Origin: Mortierella sp. BCC40632
Lineage: Eukaryota; Mortierellomycota; Mortierellomycetes; Mortierellales; Mortierellaceae
DNA length: 64,000 bases
Assembly: GCA_011634665.1 (NCBI GenBank)
Contig: WAEK01000009.1
Coordinates: forward strand, 2,223,501-2,287,500
Reading direction: 5' to 3'
Shown: piece by piece, positions 8,876 through 25,392 of the stretch
Numbering within the stretch: the stretch's first letter is position 1
Layout of the letters: every line of letters starts with the position of its first letter
Made by a program: the position numbers and the translations under genes
The notes under the pieces: model-generated
The model's database searches: none
What the model was told of the DNA's origin: nothing
Seen by the model: the letters and a program-made list of their open reading frames with translations, nothing else

Positions 8876-9842
8876 CTAGGTCGCTGTTCCACGACATCCA
8901 AATCCAAGAGTTATCATGGCAGCAGAGGGTATATGGTGCCGATTATTATCCTTGACCAAGTCGAGAATAGATCCCGCTGCGAGATTCCTTGATGCCGAAT
9001 CAGGCGTAGATGGATCGGGGAGGTCCATGAACAACAGGCTGGGTCTATTTTCAGGTGCTATCCCGAATCCACGACGCCATGCTCTCGGTAAACCACGAAT
9101 GGATCCGTCAGTCACAGGAAGATTTCCATTGCCCCTCACAAACGCGTCAAGGAAGGTGGCGATTGGTCCTGGTGCAAAGAACTTGTCCGAAATTGTTTTG
9201 ATGTCGGCATGGAGATCGCCTATTGTATGAGAAGAAAGGGTGCGTATGTTAGAACCACCAAAAAAAAAAAAAAAAAAAAAAAAAAAAAGCAGGAACAAGA
9301 GAACATAAGCGAGGTCATACCAGACAGTGGCGAACTGGGATGAGAACCATCCGAATGGTATCCAGGAAGTGGAGTCAATGAGCGAGAAGGCGCTGGTGCA
9401 TGCATCACTAATGGAACAAGGGAGGGAAAAAAAAGAAAGGTTAGCGGGGTGAACAAAACCATGTTTACAGGATCAATGAACAAGACGCGTCTCATTACCT
9501 AAGGGAGGAGGGCTCTGGACAATGATATGATTGTCTTTTGGGAGGCGCCTCTGGAAAGGCATCAGTAATGTCGTCTGTCTCATCAAGCTCTTCTTTTGAT
9601 GGAACATCAGCAAGCCAAATCTCCTTGCGGTCCTTCTTTGGCAGAACAGGAACAGAGATGCACCAGAGGGTGAGGTCCTTGGCATCAACTCCGCTGAATG
9701 TGTCAGGAATCTTGGCCTTGATGGAGTCTTTGAGAGCATCAACGGTCTTTGTGGATTCAATCTCGACCGAGAAGGCATTAGCCTCTCCATCAAGCAGACA
9801 GAACAAAGTGAGGGGGATGGCTGTCATGGTGTTGTGAGGCAT
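8876..9842 (-). pseudogene. Crinkler (CRN)-type protein, broken
   Basis: Exon 1 (ATG at 9842 or 9827) encodes a crinkler-type N-terminal ubiquitin-like header: LFCLLDGE, later LTLWCISVPV, as in other CRN-family proteins. A second exon (from about 9410 to 9325, preceded by a TTAG acceptor) is Pro/Ser-rich, and a third (about 9219-8880) carries a DLPDPSTPDSASRN segment that I recognise from fungal crinklers. Exon 1 is broken: near 9540 the frame shifts by one base at a four-A run, after which the expected header end lies in another frame. The third exon ends at a stop where a nucleotide-binding loop would be expected and the loop is degenerate. A 30-base A tract lies in the second intron. Crinklers are secreted or nuclear effectors or conflict proteins in other organisms; here probably inactive. 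Confidence 0.7.
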
Positions 9843-10223
9843 CAGTGGAAAGAAGGAGAGGAGGAAAGGAAGATGCGAGGTGCAGAGAAAGCGAGAGATG
9901 AAAGAAAAGGACGGGATTTAAAAAGGAACAGGAAGAAGGGACGGAAAGGCGTGAGAACGGTGGCAAAGACGATGCAAAGGCGGAATTGGTGGCAAAAAGA
10001 GATAGAGAGTAACGAAAAGTGAGATCAAAAGAGAGCGTGAGAGTGAGGAGGGTGACATTGCAGGGAGACACGCCGAAAGTGGGTGGAGATGCGAGGTGAC
10101 GCAGCAACTACGGCAAAGTAGAAAATCGGCGACGTAACGAAGTGGCTTGGCGTCCAAGCATCTTTGCCAACTTTCAGCCTCCAGCTTTTCGCGTCATTTG
10201 TTCTTCATTCTCTTTTACACACC

Positions 10224-11918
10224 ATGTCTACCAACCCGTTGAGTTTGTTCTGCCTAGTTGATGGGCTGGCAGTCTCTAACGCGTTCTCTGTCAAGATTTC
10301 CTTAAGCGACACTGTGGATGACCTCAAAAAACTCATCAAAGCCGACCAATCCCCCATTTTCGATGACATTGCTGCAAACAACCTCACCCTCTGGCGCGTC
10401 TCGATCCCCACCTCAGATGACGACGACGATGCCTGCATTCTACTTGACAATGTCAGTAGCAAGGACAAGAAGAAGCTCAGCAATCCGAGGGCGCGTCTCT
10501 CTTCGCTGTTTCCAGAGAGCCTTGATGACAATACTTACATCCTCGTCCAACGCCCGTCACAACCACAAGCAGGTAATTGAGTTCTAGTCGATCCAAATGC
10601 ACAACCGATTCGGAAAGAGTTGAATTGACATCTTTTTTTGCTCCATCAATGTGTAGATTCCCGGGACCCTGAAATGGCCGCACTACGCAAACAAGTGTCG
10701 GACCTCCTCGATCCGTCTATCAGTAAGCGATAAGGAAAGGTCACCTTTTCGTGTCGCTGGTAAGTCGTGTATCTGCCATTAATGTATGTCTTATTTCCTC
10801 CTATTTTCAATTTGGTAGATCTTGGGATTATCGTCAAACCCGACAAAGCAGTTGCATTTTCTTGGTCGGTCCAGATAGACACAGCGACTCTTGAGGACTT
10901 GAGGAAGAACATCTTTGAGTTTTATCCACAGTACGCTCATGACAACTACCTACGGATTTACGTCTACAGCGGACAACCCAAGCCAGAAGCTGTGCTCGAC
11001 GATGAAGGTCTTCGCAAAATACTCAGAGTCGTCAAGACTACATTCAAGACGAAACTGACTATATCTCTGGAGACACCAAGCAAGAGTTTTGCTGCTTGGA
11101 CTTTTAAGGATGTCTGTGAGGAGTACAACCTCTCTGTAGCCTCGGAGCCTCAAGTGGAGGCGCTCAAGCCTTTTACCGACATTGATTCCATGGTGTTGGA
11201 TACAGATTTTCAGAAAGCAGCACAGGATCTCCTCATCATGGAAGTCGAGGCAAGGGTGCGTGTCCTACCACTGTTCAGTGCAAATGAGGCAACCCAGTCA
11301 ATAGTGGTCGCCTCATTTCTGGTGGCAGCGACACAGCTCTTCAAGGACGAGCTCTATCTTGTAGCACAGCGACACCTCAGCGGACGACGAGGAAATGGAC
11401 CAGTCGACTTTTCAATTCATCCTCTGAAGACTCACGACTGCACACTAGGCGTGACGGAGGTCAAGAAAGACGACTTTCGACAGGGAATCGCACAGAATAT
11501 TGTACAGTTGGAAGCAGCCTTGACGGAAAAGAAGCGCAAGCGCGAGAAGAACGACGTTGATGGTGATGAAGAACCACCAAGTGAGCAAAGAGCCTATGGG
11601 ATTGTCACAGATTCAAAGGAGTGGGCGTTTGTTGAGTGTACGGTGGACGAAGATGAGGAAGTGTCGATCAGGATGAGCAGGCTTAGTGAATCCATCAACT
11701 TTGCTGGTGACTGGAAAGACGATGCCAGAAAGATTTTTGCTAAGATCGCATGGCTTTGGTCACGGATAGTAGCGGAGATTCCGGCACGCGATAGCTATTC
11801 CAGGAAATTGACTACTTCACCAAACAAGAGAAAGACCCGAAAATCCATCGACTTGTCAGTTAGCACAAGTACAGTCAGTACAAGCACAGCCAGCATAAGT
11901 GCAGCCAGAATTAGTTGA
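10224..11918 (+). CDS. Crinkler (CRN)-type protein with restriction-endonuclease-like C-terminus
   Basis: Three exons, 10224-10572, 10657-10722 and 10819-11918, with GT-AG introns joining in frame to a predicted 504 residues. The start is ATG in an ACCATG context. Residues 1-116 form the crinkler ubiquitin-like header (LFCLVDGLA, LTLWRVSIP, ILVQRPS near its end). The C-terminal region has D335 followed by E352-V-K354 (PVDFSI, then TEVKK), the D...ExK signature of the restriction-endonuclease fold that known CRN families use as a nuclease domain. A K/R/E-rich segment follows, and a Ser/Thr-rich low-complexity tail (STSTVSTSTAS) ends the protein. No signal peptide is evident. It is divergent from the broken crinkler at 9842, with 381 bp between starts. 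Function is inferred from family: nuclear effector or intragenomic-conflict nuclease. No break is seen. Confidence 0.8.
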
Positions 11919-12395
11919 GAGCACAGCCAGCGCGCAGCCAAGCCAATTTTGGTTGAAACCACAGCCTTGGACCACGCGAATGATCATCCTTCTTTAGCAC
12001 ATCCCTCATAGCAATAGCTGTTCAACCCTCGTCTTGCAGTAATAGTAGCCATCTCAGTTAGCCATCTCAGTTAGCACCCTTACATGTACCAATAGCATAC
12101 GTCCTTTTCCTTCGCATGCTTCCCTCTCTGATGTGTTTTTCACAATATTTTGATTATGCTCACATTAGTTTGAATTCGAGGTGACTAACATGTGTCATGC
12201 CTAGTTATTGTGCCTTGCAAAAATTTTTGACCACAGATTGAGAGGTCAATTCGCTCAATAACTTATTGAACATGCGCGTTATCAGCTCCTCTCAAGCACT
12301 TATTTGCAACCAATGGTCACCTTCTTTGGTGCTCTCTAAAATTAAAGTGCTGTTCCAAAGTATGGGTTGTGCATCTCTTCCTCTTCCCTTTCAAC
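11919..12395. other. Intergenic, no gene seen
   Basis: About 480 bp with a short direct repeat (GCCATCTCAGTTA twice near 12047-12075) and no frame of note. It presumably holds the crinkler 3' region and the promoter of the next frame. Confidence 0.5.
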
Positions 12396-13329
12396 ATGAA
12401 CCGTACCAGCGTTTCCCCTCCTTATCCGTACTCTGATGACTCTCAAGAATCTCCCGTCCTCTCCCCCTTCCCATCTCTCACTCAGACACAGAAACCTTCC
12501 ACAACAACGCCTATTGAGCTCCCTTCCCTCTTAAATATCCGCATCAACATTCGCAAGGGACAGCCCCGCTCAACTCACAGAGCCTTGAGGAGCAAGGATG
12601 GTCGCCAACTTGAGGCCCCTCAGACCGTACTCATCACCAACATTGGCTTCACAACCTTGGCTAGTTTTGTGAAGGATGAAGTCTGCCGAATGACTTTGGA
12701 TGGGCAGTCGCTGTACACTGGCAAAGGCCAGCTTGAAGTTTATCTTAAGCCAACTGGCAGGACCGGACAGAGGGGCTCATCCAACTATGCAAAGACAACG
12801 TTCCCTCAGAGCTACACAAAAGCCTGGCGCCACTTCCGTAAGGTACTCGACAATCAAGGGAAAGAGAACGAAATGGTCATCCTCGATATCTTCACCTACA
12901 TCACGCTCAGCAACACTACTCTCAACCGCGGGTCGCAAAGTTTCAGTCCGCGACCATACTGTTTTCCATTACGCGGGCGGTCAAGCGAGGGCAAATGCGA
13001 CCCATGGGCCGATACGAGTCAGCTTGGTGTGCTCAGACACTATCAAGACGCAAAGTCGTCCCCAGGACGATAGGGAGGTACCCAAAATACCAGAGACTAC
13101 CACCAGGACCCAGGCCCGCCACATTGACCAAATGATTGCTGAAGGTCGTATTCCAGCAAGACCTGAGCAGGGAGGAGACGGCCCGGTGACTCTGCGCGTC
13201 ACCTCGATTACCTTCGCCAGCAGAGAGGAGCTCCAGAAAGCAATAGGGTTGGTCCCAGATTCCAACCTCAGCAGTCTCCGGGGCGACCGAGCGTCCTTAT
13301 GCACCGACCACAAAGACGATGCATTCTAA
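12396..13329 (+). pseudogene. Lineage-type fungal protein of unknown function, frameshifted
   Basis: Frame 1 starts at ATG 12396 with a Ser/Pro-rich leader, then ITNIGFTTLASFVKDEV, a VYLKPTGRTGQ segment, and a segment AWRHFRKVLDNQGKEN. After about 12940 that frame loses sense while another plus frame carries on to 13329 with ARHIDQMIAEGRIP and a REELQKAIGLVPDSNLSSL end. The combined pattern resembles an uncharacterised protein repeated in Mortierella genomes (memory only). One indel between 12930 and 12960 explains the split. No catalytic motif seen. Confidence 0.5.
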
Positions 13330-14352
13330 ATCTACTCATACGTCACCTTCTCTCTCTCGAAGAACGTGGAATTTCCGACCAGTTCCCTAATATAGGTTAA
13401 TAAACTGAATAGCTGCTTCCTCTTTACTCGGATGGATCACTGAGAGACTACGCGAAGGACAGCATCAAAGTGGCCTTTGGGGTGGTGATCAAGAGGAGGA
13501 GAGGACGAGAAGAAATGTTGACTGGAGCAGTGGATGGGTTTGCATCATCAACCAAGGCAGAGCTGATCGGACTACTGGCTGCAATCCTCTGTTGTCCACG
13601 GGAAAAGAAAGCGCTGATCAGGATAGACAACTCGGCAGTTGTTGATGTGTTCCAAGAACTAGTGGAGGGGAGGATAGATGCAACTCCAAGAAGGAAACAC
13701 AGGTCGACATACGCCGAATGGTGGACAGTCGTGTATCAAGCGTTCTGTGATCAGGGGAAGGGAGTAAGGGTCGAGTGGGTTAAAGGACACTCAGGAGACA
13801 TTGGCATCGAGGCAGCAGATCGTTTGGCGAAAAAAGCACACGACAGAGACAACTGCATTTGGGCTCTGCCAGAAAGGATCCAGGAGGAGTACGGCTGCAG
13901 GGCAACCCTCCTTGGGCAAACAGTCGAGGACGATGTACGACAGGTGCGGCATCACGAATGCATCAGCATTGGCTTCGACAGAACAGAACGAAGGACAACA
14001 TCCAGATCTGGACATGGTGGCCAAGAGCCTGTTTGGGTCAAGGTAAGTCAACGAGGTAGAGATGTAGGTTTGTTGAGCTACCTTCAAAGAATAAAAAAGG
14101 CAGGGACGGCGCTAGCCGCCAACCTCCTGTGGCTTGCATCGACCTAGGACAACTGAGTCGCCTAGACTCGACGCTGGAGACGTATTGAATGGAGCGCCAC
14201 ACTGGATATCCTTCACGAGAAGAACCCACCAAGAAGTCTTTTCACCAGCGAGGGGGACTGCAGGAGGAGGGCGCACAGGATCAAGAAACTCCACAGGATG
14301 CTACCGACTCTGATTGAAATGACGAGGCGCCACCCAGACCTCTACGAGGATG

Positions 14353-14616
14353 ACACATGTTCGTCTTGGGATCTATGGCGAGTAGCCTACGCTAGAGGAG
14401 CAGTGCCTGAGGCACGTGCGCCTCACAGTACTTACATTAGAGTTAGCTTCCTGTCTCTCAGGAGGCATGAATAAAAAACCCAACGTCCCTGGGCCAAGTG
14501 GCCAGGCATGTCTTTTTCTCACCGACTCCTTCTTCCCCTTGATGACCCTTTCGATGCTTTATTATTCCCTGTCGAGGTGTTCCCTCGAGGTAAGTTCAAT
14601 CACATCACAACACATG
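14353..14616 (+). mobile_element. 250-bp element, copy 1, with 7-bp target duplication
   Basis: The element spans 14360-14609, exactly 250 bp, from TTCGTCTTGGGATC to TTCAATCACATCACA. Both flanks carry ACACATG (14353-14359 and 14610-14616). Removing it restores the LINE reading frame directly through the zinc knuckle (DDTC into RVCGEE). It has no terminal inverted repeats. Internally it has several short hairpins, an AATAAA and a CGAGGTAAGT near its end. Copies 2 and 3 are at 52229 and 61042. Confidence 0.85.
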
Positions 14617-15507
14617 CAGGGTCTGTGGAGAAGAGACAGAGACGACGAGACACGTATGGGAATGCAAAGCAACAATGGATGGGCAAGGAGAGTACTGGAA
14701 AGGAGAAGTAGAGAAGGTCAAGGAGTATGGACAGACGCAGTTTAGGAAGGGGTTGAAGGCATAGGTGGAGCAAGGAAGGAGTACAGCAGGAAGGACGAGC
14801 CGTTCGAAGAAGCCATGCTTCAGAGAGAGGGACGAAGAAGACCTGTGGGACTCACTGGATGATATTTTTGAAGGTGTCAAAGACATCCGACAGGGGGAGT
14901 GTGAGAGAAGACAGGAGGGGAACGAGGTGATCAGGCCACACACGATCAGGGAAGCATACCAGGGTTTAGTATTAGACGTAGTGGTTCAAAAGTGGAAGCA
15001 GATGCATAGGACATCAACTCGGACAGCAAAGTATATGGCAGCACGGTTCTTTGAGGCCATTGAGGAGTATGGCAGAAAGCAGATCTGGGGTCAAAGGTGT
15101 GAGACCACAGTGGAATGGGAAAAGTCTATAGGAATCAACGCGGTGAGCAAACTCGCTGAGAGACGCAACGGCGACGGAGGACACCATTGTAGCCACGGTG
15201 ATTTCTCGGATTTGAACAATCCACTTAGGTTGAAGCCAGACCTCAGTGAGGCATATGGAGAAGCAGACGAGACGGTGTTGGCATACGTCTTAGGAAAAAA
15301 AAAGTTAGATGTAATGGATAGGTTAGGGAGTTGGAAAAAAGTGTTAGCGATGGACTCAGGCTCATAGACGACGAATGAGCGCAACTGGGCCACGTAGGGA
15401 GCTGGCATTACGACCACTCATGCGTACGTGGGTGATGGCAGTCGAGTGTCTGGAGGCTGTTTAGATAGTTTTCATTCGCGGGTGCAATCCCGCTTTGGTA
15501 CCAAGTG

Positions 15508-15537
15508 GCAACAGGGCGGCCGGAGCCGCCCTGTTGC
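15508..15537 (+). other. Perfect 13-bp hairpin in LINE 3' end
   Basis: GCAACAGGGCGGC, loop CGGA, then the exact complement. The short LINE copy at 6.4-6.6 kb keeps a related stem in the same place, so it may be the structure its reverse transcriptase recognises. The 23 bases before it (from about 15478) mimic a tRNA T-arm but no tRNA can be folded. Confidence 0.7.
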
Positions 15538-15736
15538 TCTATAAACTCAACATGCCCCACGTGGGGTCTTTGTTAAAAAAAAAAAAAAAAAAAAAAAACA
15601 TGCGTAATTAATAGATGGCAACTTGGTAGCCTTTTGATGGTTTTTCTGTGTGAAACGGGGCTCTGACATGGTGGACGGCATACTGTGCAGTAAGTTCTTC
15701 TACCATGTCTAGGCGTCAGTATTAGCTTTCAATTTA

Positions 15737-18528
15737 TTAGCAATTTCGGGTCACCTCTTGCTCTACGTGTGTGTGTAGCCCCACAGCGTCGTCACACAAA
15801 CTCTTCATTTTGGCGGTAAACTCTTGAATGTAGCCTAGACTGCACACCCTGGATCTCTTGTTCAGATGATATCCGATCCTAGTCCAGAGCACCGCAAGCT
15901 CGGTTTCACAGTCTTGAAATGTCTGTTGATAGTCTTCCTCTCGTTTGCGTTTTGCCTTCTCTCGCTCTTTGGCGCGCATTAAAGTCAAATGCTCGCGGAC
16001 ATTGGGCGGGAAGGACCATGGAATGGGTGGTCGGTTATTTTTATCAAGTTTGTTTTCCATGAAATCTTTGCCATAGCCAGTGCTGTTAGTGTTGCCGACT
16101 GGTACAAAAGGAAGTGGTGGATCCTGTATGTGTTTGATGTGGAATGATTCGTAAACCCTTTCGACCAAGTAAAGATGCTTACATGCAATTTGGTGCTTCT
16201 TGAAATCCGGACAGTTGCAGGACAGAATCTGCATCTCTGAGGTGTTCAACCCAGTGCTGTATTCCTTGTTATCTGTCGTAAAGGACTTGACAAAGGCCTA
16301 TCCAACGGTTGCGGAAGATCAGTCTCGACTTTTTCGGGTCAGGGTCTTAATAAACCGCCAATCCAAAATCTTTGATACCTTGCTCTCCTGGATCTCGAGT
16401 GTTACCATTTCCAGTGCTCGGTCGAGGTCTATCTCCTGTGCCTTTTTACGTCTTCTTTTGTCATACACCGACATAGGAGGAGGTTGGCAGCTGTTCAGTA
16501 TTCTATTACGGACTATTTGGAAATCCGTGTCGACAGGGCCCTGCAATATGTAGATAAGATGATCTGCTCGAATGTTCCGTTTGTTTTCCAAGTACACGTG
16601 CTTAAGAGTCCGGTGCCAGTTCTCTAAAAGGTTGTTGGTATTGATATCCACAAGGTGCTGTTTTCTCAAGTAAATTATCAGCTCTTTCATTACTCCTATG
16701 TACTAGATTTCGGAAAATGTACCGCATCATACCTCTCTATGAAAGGCTGCCCATTTTGGCAATTCCTCCGCTGTGAACCATTCTTGGAGGTAGTTGATAA
16801 GCTGTCTAGCGGCAGAATGATCATTCTGAAACTTCTGCCAAAGGCGCTGCTGTTCATCCGCTGTGGTCGACTTGCGGATCTCGTTGAGTTGAGGCCACAT
16901 TGCTCCTATTTCTTTCTAGAGAATACACATTAGCCATACTGCTCGACGTATCCTATCCACTTGTGGTGCCCATAAAGATTACTCGAGAAATTACATTGCC
17001 CTTTGTCCTCAGATTTCGCTCCCAAATCTGAGCAACATGGAAGGAGCAGTAATAAATCCGGCAATCCCTGAATGCGGCCTTGATTCCTGCATGCTCCACC
17101 GCAGAACAGTCTACCATGAATCCATTTGTTCTGAATCCACAGCAATCTCTGAGCCATTTCAGCCAGTGTGCAATGGGGTACCTATTTGATGAGAATATTA
17201 TTGAGTGCAATGCAAAGTGTGACAGCACAGTGTAGCACGTCGAAGTAACCAAAGAGTAACACATACTGTGATTCATTACTACATATCAAAAATGAGATTG
17301 GTATGCCCTTTTTACTAAACTTGTCTTTGACAAGTAGCGTAAATAAGAACCCCGACTCGTACACTGTTGAACCATCCTTTAATGTATGACGAAGCTTCTT
17401 GACGACCTTGTGGGTAGAATCCATGCAGGCAATGTCTGCGTTGTCCGCCATTACCTAGTTAAAAAGTGGCCATGAATATGGTGTGTCTCACGCAAAAAAA
17501 AAGCAAAGCAATTTCGGATATTTACTCACCTTTTTTTTTTTTTTTTGTTTTTTTTTTATTCAGTCTCGACGATGATATTTACTCACCTGCAACTGAAATG
17601 AAGTGCTCCAAGCAATCGCGAAGTCATTTGGGTCGCTGTACTGGCCCTTTCGGAACATAGTCCTGCCGTTCTCCTTCCAAATTTCATCGAGCCATAGTTT
17701 GACGCTCTTTTCTATATCCCGATTCTTACGAAACGTCTTGGGTTGCCTGTCATAAAGTACCTGGCGAACAAGATTGTATGAGACACGCCCACCTATACGC
17801 ATATACATTCGAGAGGCCTACATCAATGGTTTATCGTCTGGTTATGTCGAAGAGGTAAGGATAGTTGCACTTACGTTCTTTCGTTGCTCTTTACTTGGAC
17901 GTAGCACCTTCCTAATAGTGCTCCACTCGTGTCCCCCATTCACCATGTTCTTGACAAAATTACGTTGACTTGCCGCTGGAGGAAGGGCCATTAGTGCCTG
18001 TGGTAAGTTGCTATGGGTGTGTTTCCAGTGGTACTCGACGACAATTCGATCCTCGCCAATACTCTTTCGCAGAAAAATATGAGCCTGGCAGTCTTGAGGT
18101 ACCGACTCGCGTTTACACTTGATGATCCTCTTTTTTCCGTGGCGACGACATCGAAACTTTAAAGTCCAGTCGAACTTTGGTGAAGGGCCGGGGTGCACAT
18201 GTTGGAGTAGCTGCTTACTTTTATCGGGAAGAAAACAATCCATGAACTCTTTCCGGTACCAGTGTCTTGCACTTGGAGTGATGTCATCTGACCAGTCATA
18301 CGCGAGTCTCTCATGTCTCCAGAAGTCACGAAAGCGTTGAGTTGTGAACGACAACAATAGTGGATGAGGAGACCCTGGCGGTATGCAATAGGGGATGGCA
18401 ATGAAATGAGGATCCATGCTAGGGTCTGCATGCCAAACATCCCCAAGAATCAAGTTGTCTGAGATAGGCATTGTGAGGGTGTTGAGGAGCATTCGTGAAT
18501 CGCATCCATCTCTTGACACACTGGTCAT
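15737..18528 (-). CDS. Mutator-like (MULE) DDE transposase
   Basis: At least seven exons on the minus strand: 18528-17875, 17817-17587, 17454-17267, 17181-16983, 16915-16733, 16702 to about 16330, and about 16300-15737; the first five junctions are GT-AG and in frame. Order of domains: an N-terminal FAR1/GCM-like zinc DNA-binding region (RCRRHGK... to HWKHTHS, C-C-H-H), a helical region, then the MULE transposase domain with catalytic D in CMDSTHK, second D in GFMVDCSAVEHAG, CSFHVAQIWERN, and E in TNNLLENWH. It ends with a SWIM zinc finger (CNCPDFKKHQIACKHLYLV) and a charged tail. Nothing clearly disabling is seen, though the 16300-16330 junction is unresolved. It lies head to head with the XPG-Fanzor gene, with 116 bp between start codons. 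It cuts and pastes DNA by a DDE mechanism, probably moving this element. Confidence 0.88.
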
Positions 18529-18644
18529 GTAACAAGCCACCCCATTTTAGGATAAAAAAGCTTTCCAAGCACTCATTGCCATCGTCTCACTGTCCTCACC
18601 CCTTTCACCATTTTACCTGTTCACGTATTCGTCACATTTTCATC
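18529..18644. promoter_or_regulatory. Shared intergenic promoter region of MULE transposase and XPG-Fanzor genes
   Basis: Only 116 bp separate the two divergent start codons, so both promoters must overlap here or extend into the opposite gene. The stretch is pyrimidine-rich on the plus strand toward the Fanzor start. No strong TATA box is visible. Co-regulation is inference. Confidence 0.45.
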
Positions 18645-21600
18645 ATGGGCATCCAAGGCCTTTGGGCCTGGTTGCGTAAGAAAATGAAACCTATATTCCA
18701 TTGTGTCAGTCCACAATTTCCAACTAGCCTCTATTTGCGTTCGCCTCTGTCGACTGTCCGTGTAGATTTCTTGGGTAGTTTCTTCCCCACAATTATTTGG
18801 GCATACTCAAATCACACTCGCGAAAAGGCTCATCTGATTCTGGAAGGCGTTCTGAAGAAACTGGGTACGTGTTTGAATGTCGCCCCCAAATGTAGGTGAT
18901 GCGCACATAGTGGCTATACCAACTCATGGTTTTCATTTTGTTTACCACTGTAGGCTCCCAGCAACGTATCGTTATCTATTTTGACGGCGACCCTGCGGAA
19001 GAAAAGGCCGAGACTCACCAGCGCCGTCGGAAAATACGGGAAGAGGCACAAACACGAGCTCAACATGCGCTCAAGGTGCTGCGAGATCGTGTCCACAGTA
19101 ATCGAAGAGTTCGCAAGACCCATTTCAACAGTGTTCGGAAGCACTTGCGCTGCTGTTTCAGATGGAGTACTTCCGAGCGTGATGCGTTCGTAGCTTTCCT
19201 CCAAAGCAAAGGCTGGACTGTGGTTCTCTGTGAGACAGAGGCTGATGTAAAGATCGCGCAGGATTGCATGATCGATGATATAGTCGTTTCACGGGATAGC
19301 GATATGCTGATACATGGGACGGTCTCCACACTCTGGAGGCCTGTAGGATATGCTACCCAGGGAAAGTTCCTTGAGTATGAGGTCCATCCCATCCTTACAG
19401 CGCTCGGGTTGAGTAGATCCCAATGGACATCGCTCGGAGTGGTAACCAAGAACGATTACTCTGGAAACATCCGTACCTTGGGCATTGCCACCAACTTTGA
19501 ACTGTTAAAATCTCTCGATGGAAACCAAGGTATGGAGTAAATTTAGCGACAGAATACAAGGACCGTTGTCTCACGTTAATACCTAACTCATACCCTTCAT
19601 TGCGTTTTTGATTAGATGTACCTTCCCTTATCAAACAGTACCTGGGACTTGATAAGGTGGCCTGCAAGAACAAGAAAGGGGAGGCCTTCTTATCTGCGAT
19701 AAATGTTTTCTTCTTCAGGCGTCAAAAACCAGTCGCTAGTATTTTGACCGACCCACCTACGGCAGACCTGACCTACCACGCTTTGCGAAACGAGTTTAAC
19801 CGCGTCTGCGATGAATTTGACCAACAGAAGCAGATGCGACAAGTGGCAAGGAAGGAGCTTAAGAGGTAACAATGGAAATGCAAATAACAAATACTCCTTC
19901 ATTCTGGACATGTAGCACCATATTGACTGCAAATTAAATTGCATATATAATTTAGGTCTCATACTTGGCTTCCCAGCCAAAAAGCTCATCAGCACTACAA
20001 CCACTTTCGAACTGTCGACCGTGTGCCACATGACTCAAGAGCGACCGTTTCAACCCTCTCGACGTCAGTAGTTGTCTCTCATATGCCGGAGTCCCTTCTT
20101 CAAGCTCCCGTACCTGCCTTTCCGGCAGCTGCAATTTCCTCGCGGGTGACAGTGTCTACTCCTCGAATGCCCGAGCCTGCACACCAAACATCCGCGCTTG
20201 CCCCTCATGTGCCAACCTCAGCCCAGCAGGAATCGGCAACATCCTCAGGTTACACCAAGAAGCCACAACATCGGCCCCGCTACTCTTTCAAGGAGCGTAG
20301 AAAAGGCAAGGAGCATGATCCTCCAGAGGTTTGTACCCAATTCCAGCGCAAGAACTACAAAAAGCCTCCCGACCCACCCATAATCACTTCTCCATCCAAA
20401 GCAACCAAGAAGGGCCACATTCGTCCTGCAATCACCAACAGCAATAAGAAGACAATTCTGAATGCTCTGGACTATGAGCATCCCATAGTTAGTCTCGACG
20501 TGGGAACACTTCGCACCAATGTCCGAGAGGCTTGTAAGAGCGGCACTCCTTTATCAAGCAGTGTATGCAAGAGCGACATCTCCCCAGCAGACGATATGAA
20601 TCAGACTATTATTTCCTTGGATGATGACAAGCATGAGTCCCACAAGACAAACGACCCATTGTCCAATGAGGCTTTACACTGCATACAAGGGGCAGTACAA
20701 GAGGCTTGGTCTGTCAAGAGACGGTGTCAGCGACTTATCGGCATGTACATTGAGAAGATATTGGCCCAAGAGAGCATTGACAACACAGACCGCGACATCT
20801 TGGATCATCTCTGCCCTCGTCTCCGTGATTTAGATGTCATACAAGTAAAAGAGAAAATCAACACATCTGCTACCGTCACGGATACGAGCAAATCTACAGC
20901 TGGGACTTCCAACTCTACATCTATCACTCCTGCCGGTACTACAGACGAAGAAGAGACGAACCAGGATTATAATCATGATGACGAGGAGTCTAACAAGAAC
21001 AAACAGTTGACATTTTTGCGATCAGTAATGGCGTGCCTTTATTCCAAAAATCGCCCATTGCTTGGAAGCACAGCAGACAACTTCATTACTCGGCTTGAAG
21101 AACTGAACCTTCTTGCTGCAGAGGAAAGACCCCTTCCTCATGGATCTCCGCGGCAAGACGCCATATATACTCCTTCAAGGCTGGTTCGTTCTGTTGCTTC
21201 GCAGCTGAATATTGAACTCATGAAACATTTCAAGAATGGGACTTGTGAGCTTTTTAAAAAGGTAACAATTAGCCAATCTCCAATAATCGTGCATGTAATT
21301 ATACTCAACGCTAACAATTTTCAATTCTGCCCCTGCTCTGCAATTTGCGCTACTTTAGCTAATGCAACAGGTGAACAAGGGGTTATTGCCGCCGAGCCCT
21401 GGCATAGAGCTTCGAACAGATGAATCATCTGTCGAGAATTTCTTTCGACTAAATGCAACTGCCAAGTGGCCCATGACCCCAGTTCCCTTGTCCTCCGTGG
21501 AGCATGGTTACATCAATCTCTCTGAATATGATTTGGCGGCGTTTTTCTGGAAGCATGAAAACCTGAGGACCAAATTGAAAGACCTGATGGCGCCCGATTT

Positions 21601-23131
21601 CCCTAGCGCGTCCAAGGATGAATTCAACATGACATACTGTGTTGATGACTGGATATCGGGCAAGGAACCAGGGTTCTTGATCAAGGAATTCATCTGTGAT
21701 ATCTCCAAGGAGGATCTGACGGTGCGACAACGAGGCAAGGCGGGCTACCGTGCTGCTGTGAAGCAGCTTTCATTCGAACAGCTTTTCCATCACATCAACG
21801 AATTGCGCCATTCATCGTTCAGCCCGCACCATTATGACAAGAAGGGGTATCTAATCCGTGGATCTATCCGAACGAATGGACACCGCTTACAGTTACTGGC
21901 TTATAAACTACGGGAACTCCAATCGGTTAGATTTCGGCGTTACCCACAGAAAAAGCTACCGAATCAACTAACCTGTACGACGGGTGGAACCGATTATTAT
22001 CTCACCGAAATCCGCAACTTGATAACTTGCCCAAATGATGTAAACAGCCTGCTGGGCTGTTCCCCCGACGAAGTCCGGGAAAAAGTGCGCGTTCTGGGCT
22101 TGGACCTTGGACAGGCCTTCGTTGTTGGAGCTAGTGCGGTACAGGCCACGGCTCCCACGCGCAGACGCCGGAGACGACACAAACGTCGTAAGAAAAGAGG
22201 AAGTCGTGGTAAGAAGCGAAGCAACGCCGGCAAGATTGCAAAAACCGACTACTACAACTTAGCTGTGAAACAGAAAGCCGTTTACCAGCCGACATTAAAG
22301 TTTCGACACTGGTTGGAGGCAAGGAAAGCCCGCGCCATCAATAACGCTGATCCCAAAACCATCTGCGAAATCGAATCGCATTTGCCACCTATCCGAGGCC
22401 CGTGCGCCAGTTTGGAGAAATACGTGGAACATGAAAGCAAGTACGCTGACAATTTGGATCAGTTTTACAACAGGAACCAGGTGTACAGGAAATATAGCTG
22501 GGACGCCAAGAAGGCCCTTCAAGAAGAATACAGACGCGTCGCAGACAGTTTGTTGAAAATGATCGGTGGATCTATAGGTGCCCAGACCAATAACAAAGTT
22601 GTCATTGGCGTAGGTCTGAGCAAGTTTTCTGCAAAAACCAGGCTTTCATCGTTGGACGGCACTTTCAGCTCATACTTTATTCGAACAGTAAGTCCCTATG
22701 CTTGTGAATTTTTATTCATTTTATTAGCAAGCTCTTCTTGCGCTGATATTTTTCTCTCGTTTTCTCTGTAGGCAAGGGCGCTCGGGTACACTATCGTGGG
22801 TGTTAACGAATACTATACATCAAAAAAATGCCCGTCCTGCACAAAGTTCGTCTCTCAGGTTGGCGATAATATCAGGTGCTATTATTGCGAAGGGTGCCGG
22901 AAATATTTGCACAGGGACGTCATGGCCGCCAACAACATTTGCAATGTGGTCCTCGGCCATTTAGAGAGTCAAGAAAGGCCAAAGTACCTACAGCCGGTAG
23001 ACGAACATGGTAATTACCCATGGATGCAGGAACCCCAGCGACTCGCTAACGAACGCAAGAGAAGGGCAGTGACAAGCGAGGAGGATCCCACGAAGAAGCG
23101 CAAAGGCAGCACAGCTCGTAACAGCACATAG
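18645..23131 (+). CDS. XPG/FEN1-like nuclease fused to a Fanzor (TnpB-like) RNA-guided-type nuclease
   Basis: Six exons: 18645-18864, 18954-19529, 19616-19865, 19956-21261, 21359-22687, 22772-23131; all introns are 86-98 bp or shorter, GT-AG, and join in frame to 1346 residues. The start MGIQGLW is the canonical XPG/FEN1 N-terminus. Residues 1 to about 350 form that domain with D41, D84 (YFDGD), E167 and E169 (CETEAD), D188 and D190 (SRDSD) and D241 (KNDY) matching the seven metal-binding acids of FEN1. A Ser/Thr/Pro-rich linker runs to about 780. The C-terminal Fanzor part has RuvC-I D1033 (LGLDLG), a basic insert at 1052-1071, a glycine instead of glutamate at the canonical RuvC-II site (VVIGVGLSKF, 1198-1207), an alternative E1240 (GVNEYYTSKKC), a C4 finger (C1247, C1250, C1263, C1266) and RuvC-III D1276 (HRDVMAANNI). 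Eukaryotic Fanzors are RNA-guided DNA nucleases of transposons; flap-nuclease fusion and activity are inferred from sequence only. Confidence 0.9.
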
Positions 23132-23933
23132 TTTTTTTATAGCTAGTCTATTTTTTTCCCCATATTTGTGTGTTCGGAAACACACTCTTTGGATGTGCTC
23201 TGCATATCCAGCAGATTGCGGTGGAGCTCCTAGATGTGATTTGTGATTTCGGTGACGTCATCTGGTCGAGATTTTCACTGCTTTCTAATAGTCAGTATCT
23301 CCAAGCAAAGACGCGTCATTATGAAGAAAAAAAAAAGGCCTCTCTCAACAAACTCATTGTTCTTGCATGTATACAAATTGAAGGTAGTATAGCGACAAAT
23401 TTAATTCATCGTGTAATTGCTCCCAGCGTGCCTTGGAGGGTGGGATGCTCAGCAATTCTGTTGTGCATTCATACGGATGTCACCTTTCAGCCACTGTCCA
23501 GAAACCCTCTGCGTCTGGTTATGCTCATTGTTGCTCATCTGATGCCTCTTTGGTGCTAGCAGAGAGGGGAGCTTTTGCAGGTCCAATGTCACTCCTTCAA
23601 CCGATGTGTTTAAGTAGAAACAGTGATAACCAGTTGCCTTTTCATGTGACTTGACGAGTCATAGGCAATGCAAAAAACATTCAAAGAGTTCCTTCTCGCG
23701 GATACGCACCAACATCTTTACCTTGGACGCAATTTATGCATGTTACATGGCATATCTCGGACGTGCCGGACGAATGGTTTCGAATCTGCAAAGCGAGAGA
23801 AGCCCAGCTTTGAAGAATGTCGCACAATTTACAAGGATACACTCACCCAAACAACATCAAGTCATGCGCAAGCCAAGGCGGCAAAAATCGTCCTCACCGC
23901 CATTGACCAGCATGCTGAAGGTAAGAATTGAAG

Positions 23934-23937
<4 letters not shown>
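23132..23937 (+). other. 3' non-coding region of the XPG-Fanzor gene, possible guide-RNA source
   Basis: About 800 bp without a recognisable gene. It begins with T-rich sequence, and contains a small hairpin GTGTGTTCGGAAACACAC near 23168-23185. An 87-residue ATG frame at 23668-23931 is of unknown value. In described Fanzor and TnpB systems the guide RNA comes from the element end downstream of the nuclease gene, so this is where to look; no guide is demonstrated. A T tract of about 30 bases at 23938-23967 follows. Confidence 0.3.
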
Positions 23938-23967
<30 letters not shown>

Positions 23968-23970
<3 letters not shown>

Positions 23971-25392
23971 GGCCCCGTGGGGTTTTTTTATTCGTCGGCG
24001 CGCGTCTGTCCATGCTCTGCAAAGGACATGGCCTCCGCTGCCTCTTTTTGAAAAGAAAAATAACTATCTAAACATAAAGGGGAAGTGGAGGGGGACGACC
24101 CAGAAACGATATAGGTGGAAAATAAAAATACAAAGCAGATGGGAGATATTTTTTTCTTCTTCTTCTTCTTCTACATACTCTTATACTCTTCTATGAATGC
24201 CTTCACCAAAGTACCAATTGGAGACAGGAAGTGAGGGCCCATCAATTAGTGCGATATGAACTGTCAAGTTTGTCTATGGAATATAGTAGCTGAGAGATGT
24301 TAGTGGCAAGAATATGGATTAAATATAGACAAAAGAGATGCTGCAGCTATTGCCCATATTGCTTGTTGTGTTCAAGGTGTAGACTCTAACAACAAACTTA
24401 GGTTTAATGGGATCTTTGTATGATCCAGTGGTTCCTCAGGCCGACATCAAAAATCTTGCAAGCAACAATCTTATTGATTTTTTTTTTATTTTTCTAGTTT
24501 CCTCACGAAATAGCAATGCAGGCAGAGACTACTATAATAAAAAGCAGGATTGTTTTTATCAAGGACACAAAAAGACCATACTTCATTGAAAGGGAACAAA
24601 GATAGGTAGGAGTTAGGAAAGAGCTTTTGTTGAAGACTGACTTTGCTAGGAGACGCGCTCGTCATATCCATTTGTAACTAGTAGATTGTTCACGGAGTTC
24701 TCCACTTTCCCAATGCATCAGCACTCTAGAAGTTAGAACCGGATTCTACCTAGATCTAATGGAGGTGTCTAAGGAGCAAAGGGTAGTTCGTGGTGACCTT
24801 CTACATGAGTTTACCATTGGGTAGACTGCGTTCCGTACGGTCAAAAAAAAGCGGTAGGGACAATAATCCTTTCCAGTAATCTTACTGAACTACAGCAGCC
24901 GTATCATGCCTCGTTCAAACTTTGGACTTCGCTCTGAGGTATTGCTTGTGCCCAGGGCGTCTTATAGTGCAGTTTTCCTAAACATAAACGTATTGCCGAA
25001 AAGTACACCCCAACACAAGAACTCATGATTGATCTGACTTTTCTCTTGGCTGTCCCATTCGTCAGTTGAAATTTGTATCCTCTGTACTTGGTATCCTCTT
25101 TTATGCCTCTACACAACGTCCCATTATACACATTTACTTACTCTCTCTGCATTGTTTTACTTGCCCCCTAACTAAATGCGCGTCGTCTCCATGGTGACTC
25201 GTAATCTGTTTCTTGCTTGAACTCCGTCGTTTAATACACGTTATGGCGCTATCGCACCCATGTCTATTTCTTTCTGGTCCCATTCATACCATCCGAATAA
25301 CTCTTTGTTCCCAACTACTACCTCATAACTTTTTTCCGAACTGAACCCCATCTTTCCCTCCAGAGGCCACTGCTGTACCAATCTTTGTCACC
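23968..25392. other. No recognisable gene
   Basis: AT-rich, scattered short frames only. The last few hundred bases are pyrimidine-rich and presumably contain the promoter of the hAT gene starting at 25393. Confidence 0.45.

Follow-up and report, generated by a model that had tools for sequence, protein, structure and literature searches.

Does a single fungal gene join a nuclease of the XPG/FEN1 family to a Fanzor-like nuclease, and what could such a protein do for the element that carries it? The question is raised by a 64,000-nucleotide stretch of Mortierella sp. BCC40632 (GCA_011634665.1, contig WAEK01000009.1, positions 2,223,501 to 2,287,500; hereafter the window), which lies on contig C9 of a 49.9-Mb assembly of 62 contigs (C-numbers denote contigs throughout). 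Homologs, paralogs, folds and conserved acids support the view that one gene encodes both nucleases and, judging by its sister copies, this fusion gene is cargo of a multicopy Mortierellaceae transposon. The XPG-Fanzor fusion appears to be new, whereas Fanzor1 in fungal MuDR-type elements is already known.

The original prediction held that six exons with GT-AG introns join in frame from an MGIQGLW start, and scripted joining of the exons (Table 1) confirmed it: all five introns are GT..AG, and a single frame of 1342 residues runs from MGIQGLW to TAG with zero internal stops. We compared the splice junctions with five homologs (P0001, P0002, P0003, P0004 and P0057). The junctions after residues 73 and 265 align without gaps to P0001, P0002 and P0057, and also to P0004 (3 of 16 identical at residue 73), and the junction after residue 1223 is gap-free against P0001 and P0002, the other three homologs not covering it. 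Support was mixed for the junction after residue 348 (gap-free against P0057 and P0004, gapped against P0001, P0002 and P0003) and poor for that after residue 784, which is gapped against P0001, P0002 and P0003, gap-free against P0004 (6 of 16) and not covered by P0057. Around residue 784, ten homologs chosen by pattern appear by eye to be ~4 residues longer; since an alternative acceptor ending at 21358 can supply these residues (it adds LMQQ and gives 1346 residues), exon 5 starts at either 21359 or 21371.

Given that this gene model comes from genomic sequence, and that an in-frame ATG lies in exon 4 after the XPG part, two neighbouring genes might have been wrongly joined. We reject this and lend it almost no credence, because nine annotated proteins cover 97–100% of the query, because two paralogs (C1:562919.. 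and C7:571288..) read through from the XPG end into the N-terminal half of the Fanzor without a break in frame (395 and 402 residues), and because a paired XPG part always lies 0.4–2.5 kb upstream of the Fanzor.

The expectation that unannotated relatives would exist in related fungi was borne out by 56 homologs, every one from genera of Mortierellaceae. They include a protein of Mortierella sp. AD094 (54% identity over 99%); in the XPG part the closest relative is from Lunasporangiospora selenospora (77%). In 30 of the 56, each half is covered to at least 60%, and of these 30 a total of 19 keep all eight tested acids (84, 169, 188, 190, 241, 1029, 1236 and 1272), gaps being counted as misses. 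The XPG part is absent from 10 of the 56, several of which are labelled partial. Within the genome, 25 of 52 Fanzor clusters, the window included, are preceded within 6 kb by an XPG part of the same orientation, as are 21 of the 30 clusters with at least 900 matched bases. Moreover, XPG and Fanzor distances correlate across 31 proteins, again including the window (rho 0.46, with none of 999 permutations as high); two Fanzor segments compared with each other give a rho of 0.51.

The seven catalytic acids of the XPG/FEN1 superfamily are present in the N-terminal half. Counted over alignment rows with a letter at the position concerned, window copy included (as for all residue counts here), D41 is kept in 22 of 23 rows, D84 in 32 of 32, E169 in 35 of 35, D171 in 36 of 36, D188 in 36 of 38, D190 in 38 of 39 and D241 in 40 of 40. 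Of the FEN1 acids named originally, D41, D84, E169, D188, D190 and D241 thus stand, and E167 was rejected as a catalytic acid because residue 167 is variable among homologs (P in 10, E in 9, R in 4, and others); the pair is E169/D171, which is invariant and aligns in the family profile with FEN1 'SEAE'. Against PDB sequences the family profile matches RAD2 (E = 2.1e-11) and FEN1 (1.8e-8), and predicted structures of relatives match FEN1/EXO1, in agreement with an XPG nuclease-core fold. PF00867 appears in the precomputed domain annotation of 3 of the 56 homologs. Pfam profiles, which had been proposed as a check of both domains, gave a divided answer: Cas12f1-like_TNB exceeds its cut-off in the window protein (44.4 bits; cut-off 26.3), while XPG_N and XPG_I do not reach theirs. 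It should be noted that a Pfam gathering score for XPG_N or XPG_I is a detection threshold and no biochemical criterion. Unlike EXO1, FEN1 and XPG (the Rad2 family), the nuclease here is transposon-borne and is followed by a Fanzor; where the folds match, its identity is 16–17% with EXO1 and FEN1.

In the C-terminal half, RuvC-I (D1029), the C4 zinc finger and RuvC-III (D1272) are kept, as predicted; RuvC-I reads DLG in place of the DPG fingerprint, and for this reason we name this half Fanzor1-like. The 'shifted glutamate' of the original prediction is E1236 (E in 41 of 42 rows), in the arrangement E1236-x6-C1243, which matches the alternative glutamate of Fanzor1, six residues ahead of the first CxxC (Yoon 2023, PMC10711439; papers cited by PMC number were available in excerpt, to which all statements about them are limited). 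The Fanzor1 motif of Bao and Jurka, D-X(125,275)-[TS][TS]-XX-C4 zinc finger-X(5,50)-RD (PMC3627910), is found as D1029, T1239 S1240, C1243/1246/1262/1265 and R1271 D1272. The TDG motif of the Fanzor1 WED domain (Yoon 2023, PMC10711439) reads T952-N-G954 in the window, the middle position being D in 42, N in 14 and Q in 1 of 57 family rows.

Structural matches of the full model are dominated by the XPG fold and uninformative on the Fanzor half, which was therefore compared separately. For P0028, a homolog without the XPG part (predicted structure, predicted local distance difference test score 74.2), the top seven structural matches are all Fanzors (PpFz 17.4, SpuFz 15.3 to 13.9, GtFz 13.4; next Cas-phi, 11.7), which points to a Fanzor fold in the predicted structures of relatives. 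The Fanzors of Parasitella parasitica and Spizellomyces punctatus (9cf0, 9cez, 8gkh) are the best structural matches of the C-terminal half, with ~490 residues aligned; by length alone, those solved chains (722 and ~600 residues) leave no space for a ~345-residue XPG domain beside the matched part. At the sequence level, the apparent link to Fanzor rests on the Pfam TNB match and a phmmer match to TnpB-like L79 (9b0l); no Fanzors were among the matches of family profile A1 to PDB sequences at E up to 0.01.

Comparisons between paralogs indicate mostly purifying selection on the fusion. Over nine between-subfamily comparisons with stop codons excluded, the ratio of nonsynonymous to synonymous substitution rates (dN/dS) was 0.26, 0.28, 0.29, 0.45 and 0.74 for the XPG part, and 0.13 (dS 1.25), 0.37, 0.41 (5 changes) and 0.50 for the Fanzor part; the within-subfamily ratio pN/pS was left unused because those copies are too young (0–2 synonymous and 1–6 nonsynonymous changes per domain). 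A decaying relic, or a dead XPG domain retained only for DNA binding, would fit the stops in many genomic matches, the one XPG pair at 0.74 and the 11 of 30 two-domain homologs that miss at least one of the eight tested acids, partly through gaps. Yet the window frame is intact, and wherever a homolog has a residue at a catalytic position the acid is invariant or almost so; we regard such decay as very improbable.

Beyond the original prediction, we found a divergent transposase, transposon ends and a putative guide RNA. The transposase lies head-to-head with the fusion gene, the first methionine of its first frame being ~117 bp from the fusion ATG. Its D-D-E and C.FH motifs were seen by eye, a signature that we take to be of Mutator-like element (MULE) type; its SWIM finger scores 23.8 bits in the window (cut-off 19.6), and MULE PF10551 reaches 25.8 bits in a sister copy, below the cut-off of 27.6, with no match in the window. 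In 12 of 27 other XPG-bearing stretches, the upstream DNA also matches pieces of the transposase, with the same divergent arrangement. This neighbour, together with distant XPG-like open frames that have no detected Fanzor partner in the genome, would suit an XPG half that removes 5' flaps at the 8-bp gaps after DDE/MULE-type strand transfer, the Fanzor fusion serving only for co-expression or placement at the ends. Such flap removal is usually credited to host repair. Given that the other 15 loci show no such transposase upstream, and that the fusion and co-evolution partner of the XPG part is the Fanzor and not the transposase, we consider this role unlikely.

The outline of the transposon unit comes from the sister copies. 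Two of them are 98.7% identical over 6.95 kb, after which the alignment ends abruptly, and five copies have the exact right end GATGCGTGGCTTTC in common. Perfect 8-bp target duplications, within the 8–11 bp of MULEs, were found at 6 of the 10 sister sites at which both flanks were examined: TAGTCCGA, CCACTACC and AAAAAAAG in subfamily 1 (the last, on C2, of low complexity), CGTCTGGT and CGCGCCTT in subfamily 2, and AGGAGAAG in subfamily 3. For the C7 copy, the duplicated 8-mer is present at two places in the stretch, of which we took the one ahead of the left end shared with C11. The other four sites yielded no duplication: two belong to subfamily-1 copies, on C4 and on C25 (where the left end is truncated), one to the C2 copy of subfamily 2, whose left end was not found, and one to the C7 copy of subfamily 3. 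Long terminal inverted repeats (TIRs) were absent from the window copy and from the inverted-repeat listings of three sister stretches; the subfamily-1 ends bear, by eye, a short degenerate likeness to each other. In the window, TAATAGAT, next to the LINE tail, and TAATAGTC, the right flank, agree at only 6 of 8 positions, which we do not claim as a target duplication. In subfamily 3, the Fanzor gene is split by ~7 kb of other DNA in both the C1:545333-559441 copy and the C7 copy (2774650 to beyond 2785982).

At four of the six duplicated sites (C3:~1911640, C7:1953798, C11:~1388970 and C1:545325), TGACGT, which we take to be a CRE-like motif, is followed by exactly five bases and then the duplication (CCACTACC, CGTCTGGT, CGCGCCTT and AGGAGAAG); the spacing was noticed post hoc, and the chance of one fixed 6-mer is 1/4096 per site. 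At the other two (C2:1639207-1639219 and C15:~126080), a subfamily-1 copy was inserted precisely where a resident subfamily-2 copy has its right end, forming head-to-tail tandems. Subfamilies 1–3 also have a TGACGT that ends 25–27 bases before the right end, as does the window if its inferred right end is used. The sole TGACGTMA site of the window is at 23253 (a palindrome, matching on both strands); shuffles average 3.04 matches, so its presence in the window alone is not remarkable. For empty sites, the joined flanks of two copies were searched and matched only occupied sites. The C3 copy lies ~65 bp before an ATG frame, which makes promoter targeting possible; this frame presumably resembles the start of an IST1 gene, and its 25-residue peptide has no Pfam match.

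Most likely, the right end encodes a guide RNA, with a three-stem scaffold and the flanking DNA as guide. In 7 of 7 subfamilies, the terminal 140 bases fold more stably than shuffled sequence (z -2.84 in the window, where they are positions 23146–23285 and were set against 200 dinucleotide shuffles, then -4.60, -2.95, -3.38, -2.65, -1.69 and -5.09); 24 control stretches have a mean z of +0.39. Stem 1 varies in sequence and keeps its pairing (GTGTGTT/AACACAC, GCGTGTT/AACACGC, GCATGTT/AACATGT, TGTATT/AATACA), and recurs in 9 of 10 scanned stretches, being visible by eye in the tenth (C18). Downstream of the Fanzor stop codon, the right-end motif CGGTGACGT[A/C]AT was found in the window and in 13 other loci, and also in subfamily 3. 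Right-end RNAs of Fanzor1 have three stems and include the target duplication (PMC10711439). The candidate RNA had no match in Rfam.

How might the two halves work together? Bacterial TnpB cuts the empty site, and the element is then restored by homologous repair, which requires resection of 5' ends, the job of EXO1-type enzymes. A tethered XPG-family domain would couple cutting with resection. The Fanzor half would be guided to the site occupied by the element and would cut an empty copy of it (after excision, or on the sister or homologous chromosome), the tethered XPG half would degrade or trim the 5' ends or flaps at the break, and the break would be channelled into homologous repair that copies the element back. 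We give an even chance to this reading in its general form, a two-nuclease transposon protein whose Fanzor half cuts the guide-matched empty site and whose XPG half processes 5' ends for element-restoring repair; RNA guiding, cleavage, 5'-end processing and the role in retention are what we infer. More tentatively, the protein may be a natural RNA-guided cut-and-resect enzyme, whose guided break at the transposon-free site is processed at its 5' ends by its own EXO1/FEN1-like domain, forcing homology-directed restoration in eukaryotes. The original prediction had the flap nuclease possibly processing the non-target strand, the R-loop or the transposon ends after cutting. Alternatively, the XPG half might cut the displaced strand of the R-loop or the double-/single-strand junction, giving a wider or staggered break and no resection, but the Fanzors characterised so far need no such domain to cut both strands (PMC10432273), and we hold this to be doubtful.

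Several points weigh against the two-nuclease reading. Its evidence comes from sequence and predicted structures, and by sequence resection is inseparable from flap or R-loop trimming or a role in transposition. The window copy scores below the Pfam cut-offs for XPG_I (15.0 bits; cut-off 24.9) and XPG_N (14.1 bits; cut-off 22). DPG at RuvC-I is near exclusive to Fanzors (Yoon 2023, PMC10711439), and the window protein has DLG, unlike the Parasitella parasitica and Spizellomyces punctatus Fanzors; in the family the middle residue is L in 39, G in 7, A in 5, P in 2 and M in 1 of 54 rows. No XPG part was found upstream of 27 of the 52 Fanzor clusters, many of them short. The window copy is single in the genome (the next paralog is 43% identical in the XPG part), mobility is evident for the sister subfamilies and not for the window copy, and the left end and target duplication of this copy were searched for and not found. 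No transposase match was obtained upstream (~0.8–1.5 kb) in 15 of the 27 other XPG-bearing loci even with a wider query set, so this partner is either not universal or too diverged. Finally, at up to 2 mismatches the right-end motif was not seen in eight other loci with the Fanzor 3' exon and DNA beyond it (C18, C1, C4, C6 twice, C7, C9 and C19; a by-eye tally in which some look truncated).

In the literature searched on Fanzor with XPG or Mortierella we found no XPG-Fanzor protein, in line with the earlier statement that no described enzyme of this kind was known; a mention is possible in Jiang et al. 2023 (Science Advances), which reportedly treats Fanzor diversity. In the available excerpts, natural Fanzor fusions are mentioned neither in PMC3627910, PMC10432273 (Saito) and PMC11423790 (a 2024 structure paper) nor in PMC10711439 (Yoon), which has only tag constructs, and Rad2 or flap nucleases are not mentioned in PMC3627910 or PMC10711439. 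In Mucorales, elements of the MuDR superfamily (ROr-4, PBl-3, MCi-4) carry Fanzor1 (Bao and Jurka 2013, PMC3627910); they share with ours the Fanzor-type C-terminal half, the fungal MULE-type element, the C4 zinc finger and the RD motif. Their target duplication is 9 bp versus 8 bp here, and they have TIRs and no MuDR transposase, with no XPG domain mentioned in that excerpt (PMC3627910); the Mortierellaceae element, by contrast, has a transposase head-to-head, no long TIR found, and the Fanzor fused to an XPG nuclease. The Mariner element PGv-1 likewise carries a second nuclease (GIY-YIG) beside its Fanzor within a transposon, but as separate proteins and with a nuclease fold different from XPG (PMC3627910).

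It is a standing question why transposons retain nucleases of the TnpB/Fanzor type, and so is what steers the repair of their cuts in eukaryotes. A lineage with a break-processing nuclease welded to an RNA-guided cutter would offer a direct handle, since one active site can be mutated at a time, and such mutants would tell effects on repair, retention and transposition apart. Moreover, a fusion of a cutter with 5'-end processing would be a ready design for genome editing that favours homologous repair.

Table 1. Features of the XPG-Fanzor element in the window (positions within the window; residues in 1342-residue numbering)
Feature	Position	Strand	Remarks
Stretch expected to hold the left end	15599..15736	.	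Abutted by poly-A tail (15575-15598) of long interspersed nuclear element (LINE)-like element
MULE-type transposase	15737..18546	-	Motifs MDSTH, VDC..E with C.FH, NNLLENWH, then SWIM zinc finger; approximate extent
XPG-Fanzor fusion gene	18645..23131	+	Six exons: 18645-18864, 18954-19529, 19616-19865, 19956-21261, 21371-22687, 22772-23131; 1342 residues (1346 with acceptor at 21358)
XPG/FEN1-family nuclease, residues 1-348	18645..19865	+	Exons 1-3 (18645-18864, 18954-19529, 19616-19865); conserved acids, fold, profiles
XPG acids	D41 (18765), D84 (18983), E169 (19238), D171 (19244), D188 (19295), D190 (19301), D241 (19454)		
Basic residues of XPG half	K91 (19004), R98 (19025)		
Linker, residues 349-519	19956..20466	+	5' part of exon 4; conserved basic motif (R457, K461, R463, P472, K481)
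Fanzor-like nuclease, residues ~520-1290	20467..22972	+	Remainder of exon 4, exon 5 (first base 21359 or 21371) and 5' part of exon 6
Acids of Fanzor half	D1029 (22103-22105), E1236 (22808-22810), D1272 (22916-22918)		RuvC-I D1029, RuvC-III D1272; C4 zinc finger
Candidate omega/right-end RNA	23132..23285	+	T-run, three stem-loops, between stop codon and inferred right end
Stem-loops of candidate RNA	23168-23185 (1), 23189-23211 (2)		Terminal stem-loop holds CGGTGACGTCAT (23250-23261)
Inferred right end	23285	+	Ends ...ACTGCTTTC; by likeness to sister-subfamily right ends

Around the element, the window contains a divergent pair of open frames, at 9495-9917 (- strand) and 10122-10580 (+ strand), whose Crinkler N-terminal domains (PF20147) score 76.5 and 86.3 bits. 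The LINE-like element occupies 12270-15598 (+); it has an RNase H domain and ends in a poly-A tail of 24 bases, and copies of its 3' end are present at dozens of genomic sites. Just beyond the inferred right end lie two repeats (23394-23960 and 23934-24150), one of which is 97% identical to a place on C25, the other being dispersed, short and present in many copies. Elsewhere in the genome, the XPG-like open frames with no Fanzor cluster detected downstream are 24–29% identical and lie on C5 (L093, 901200-903600), C10, C9, C27 and C17. Five loci on viral contigs match alignment A2 over short stretches (<100 residues) near the zinc finger. The XPG-Fanzor copy at C6:2618218-2624943 runs into other sequence shortly past the Fanzor 3' end, which we take to resemble 28S rDNA.

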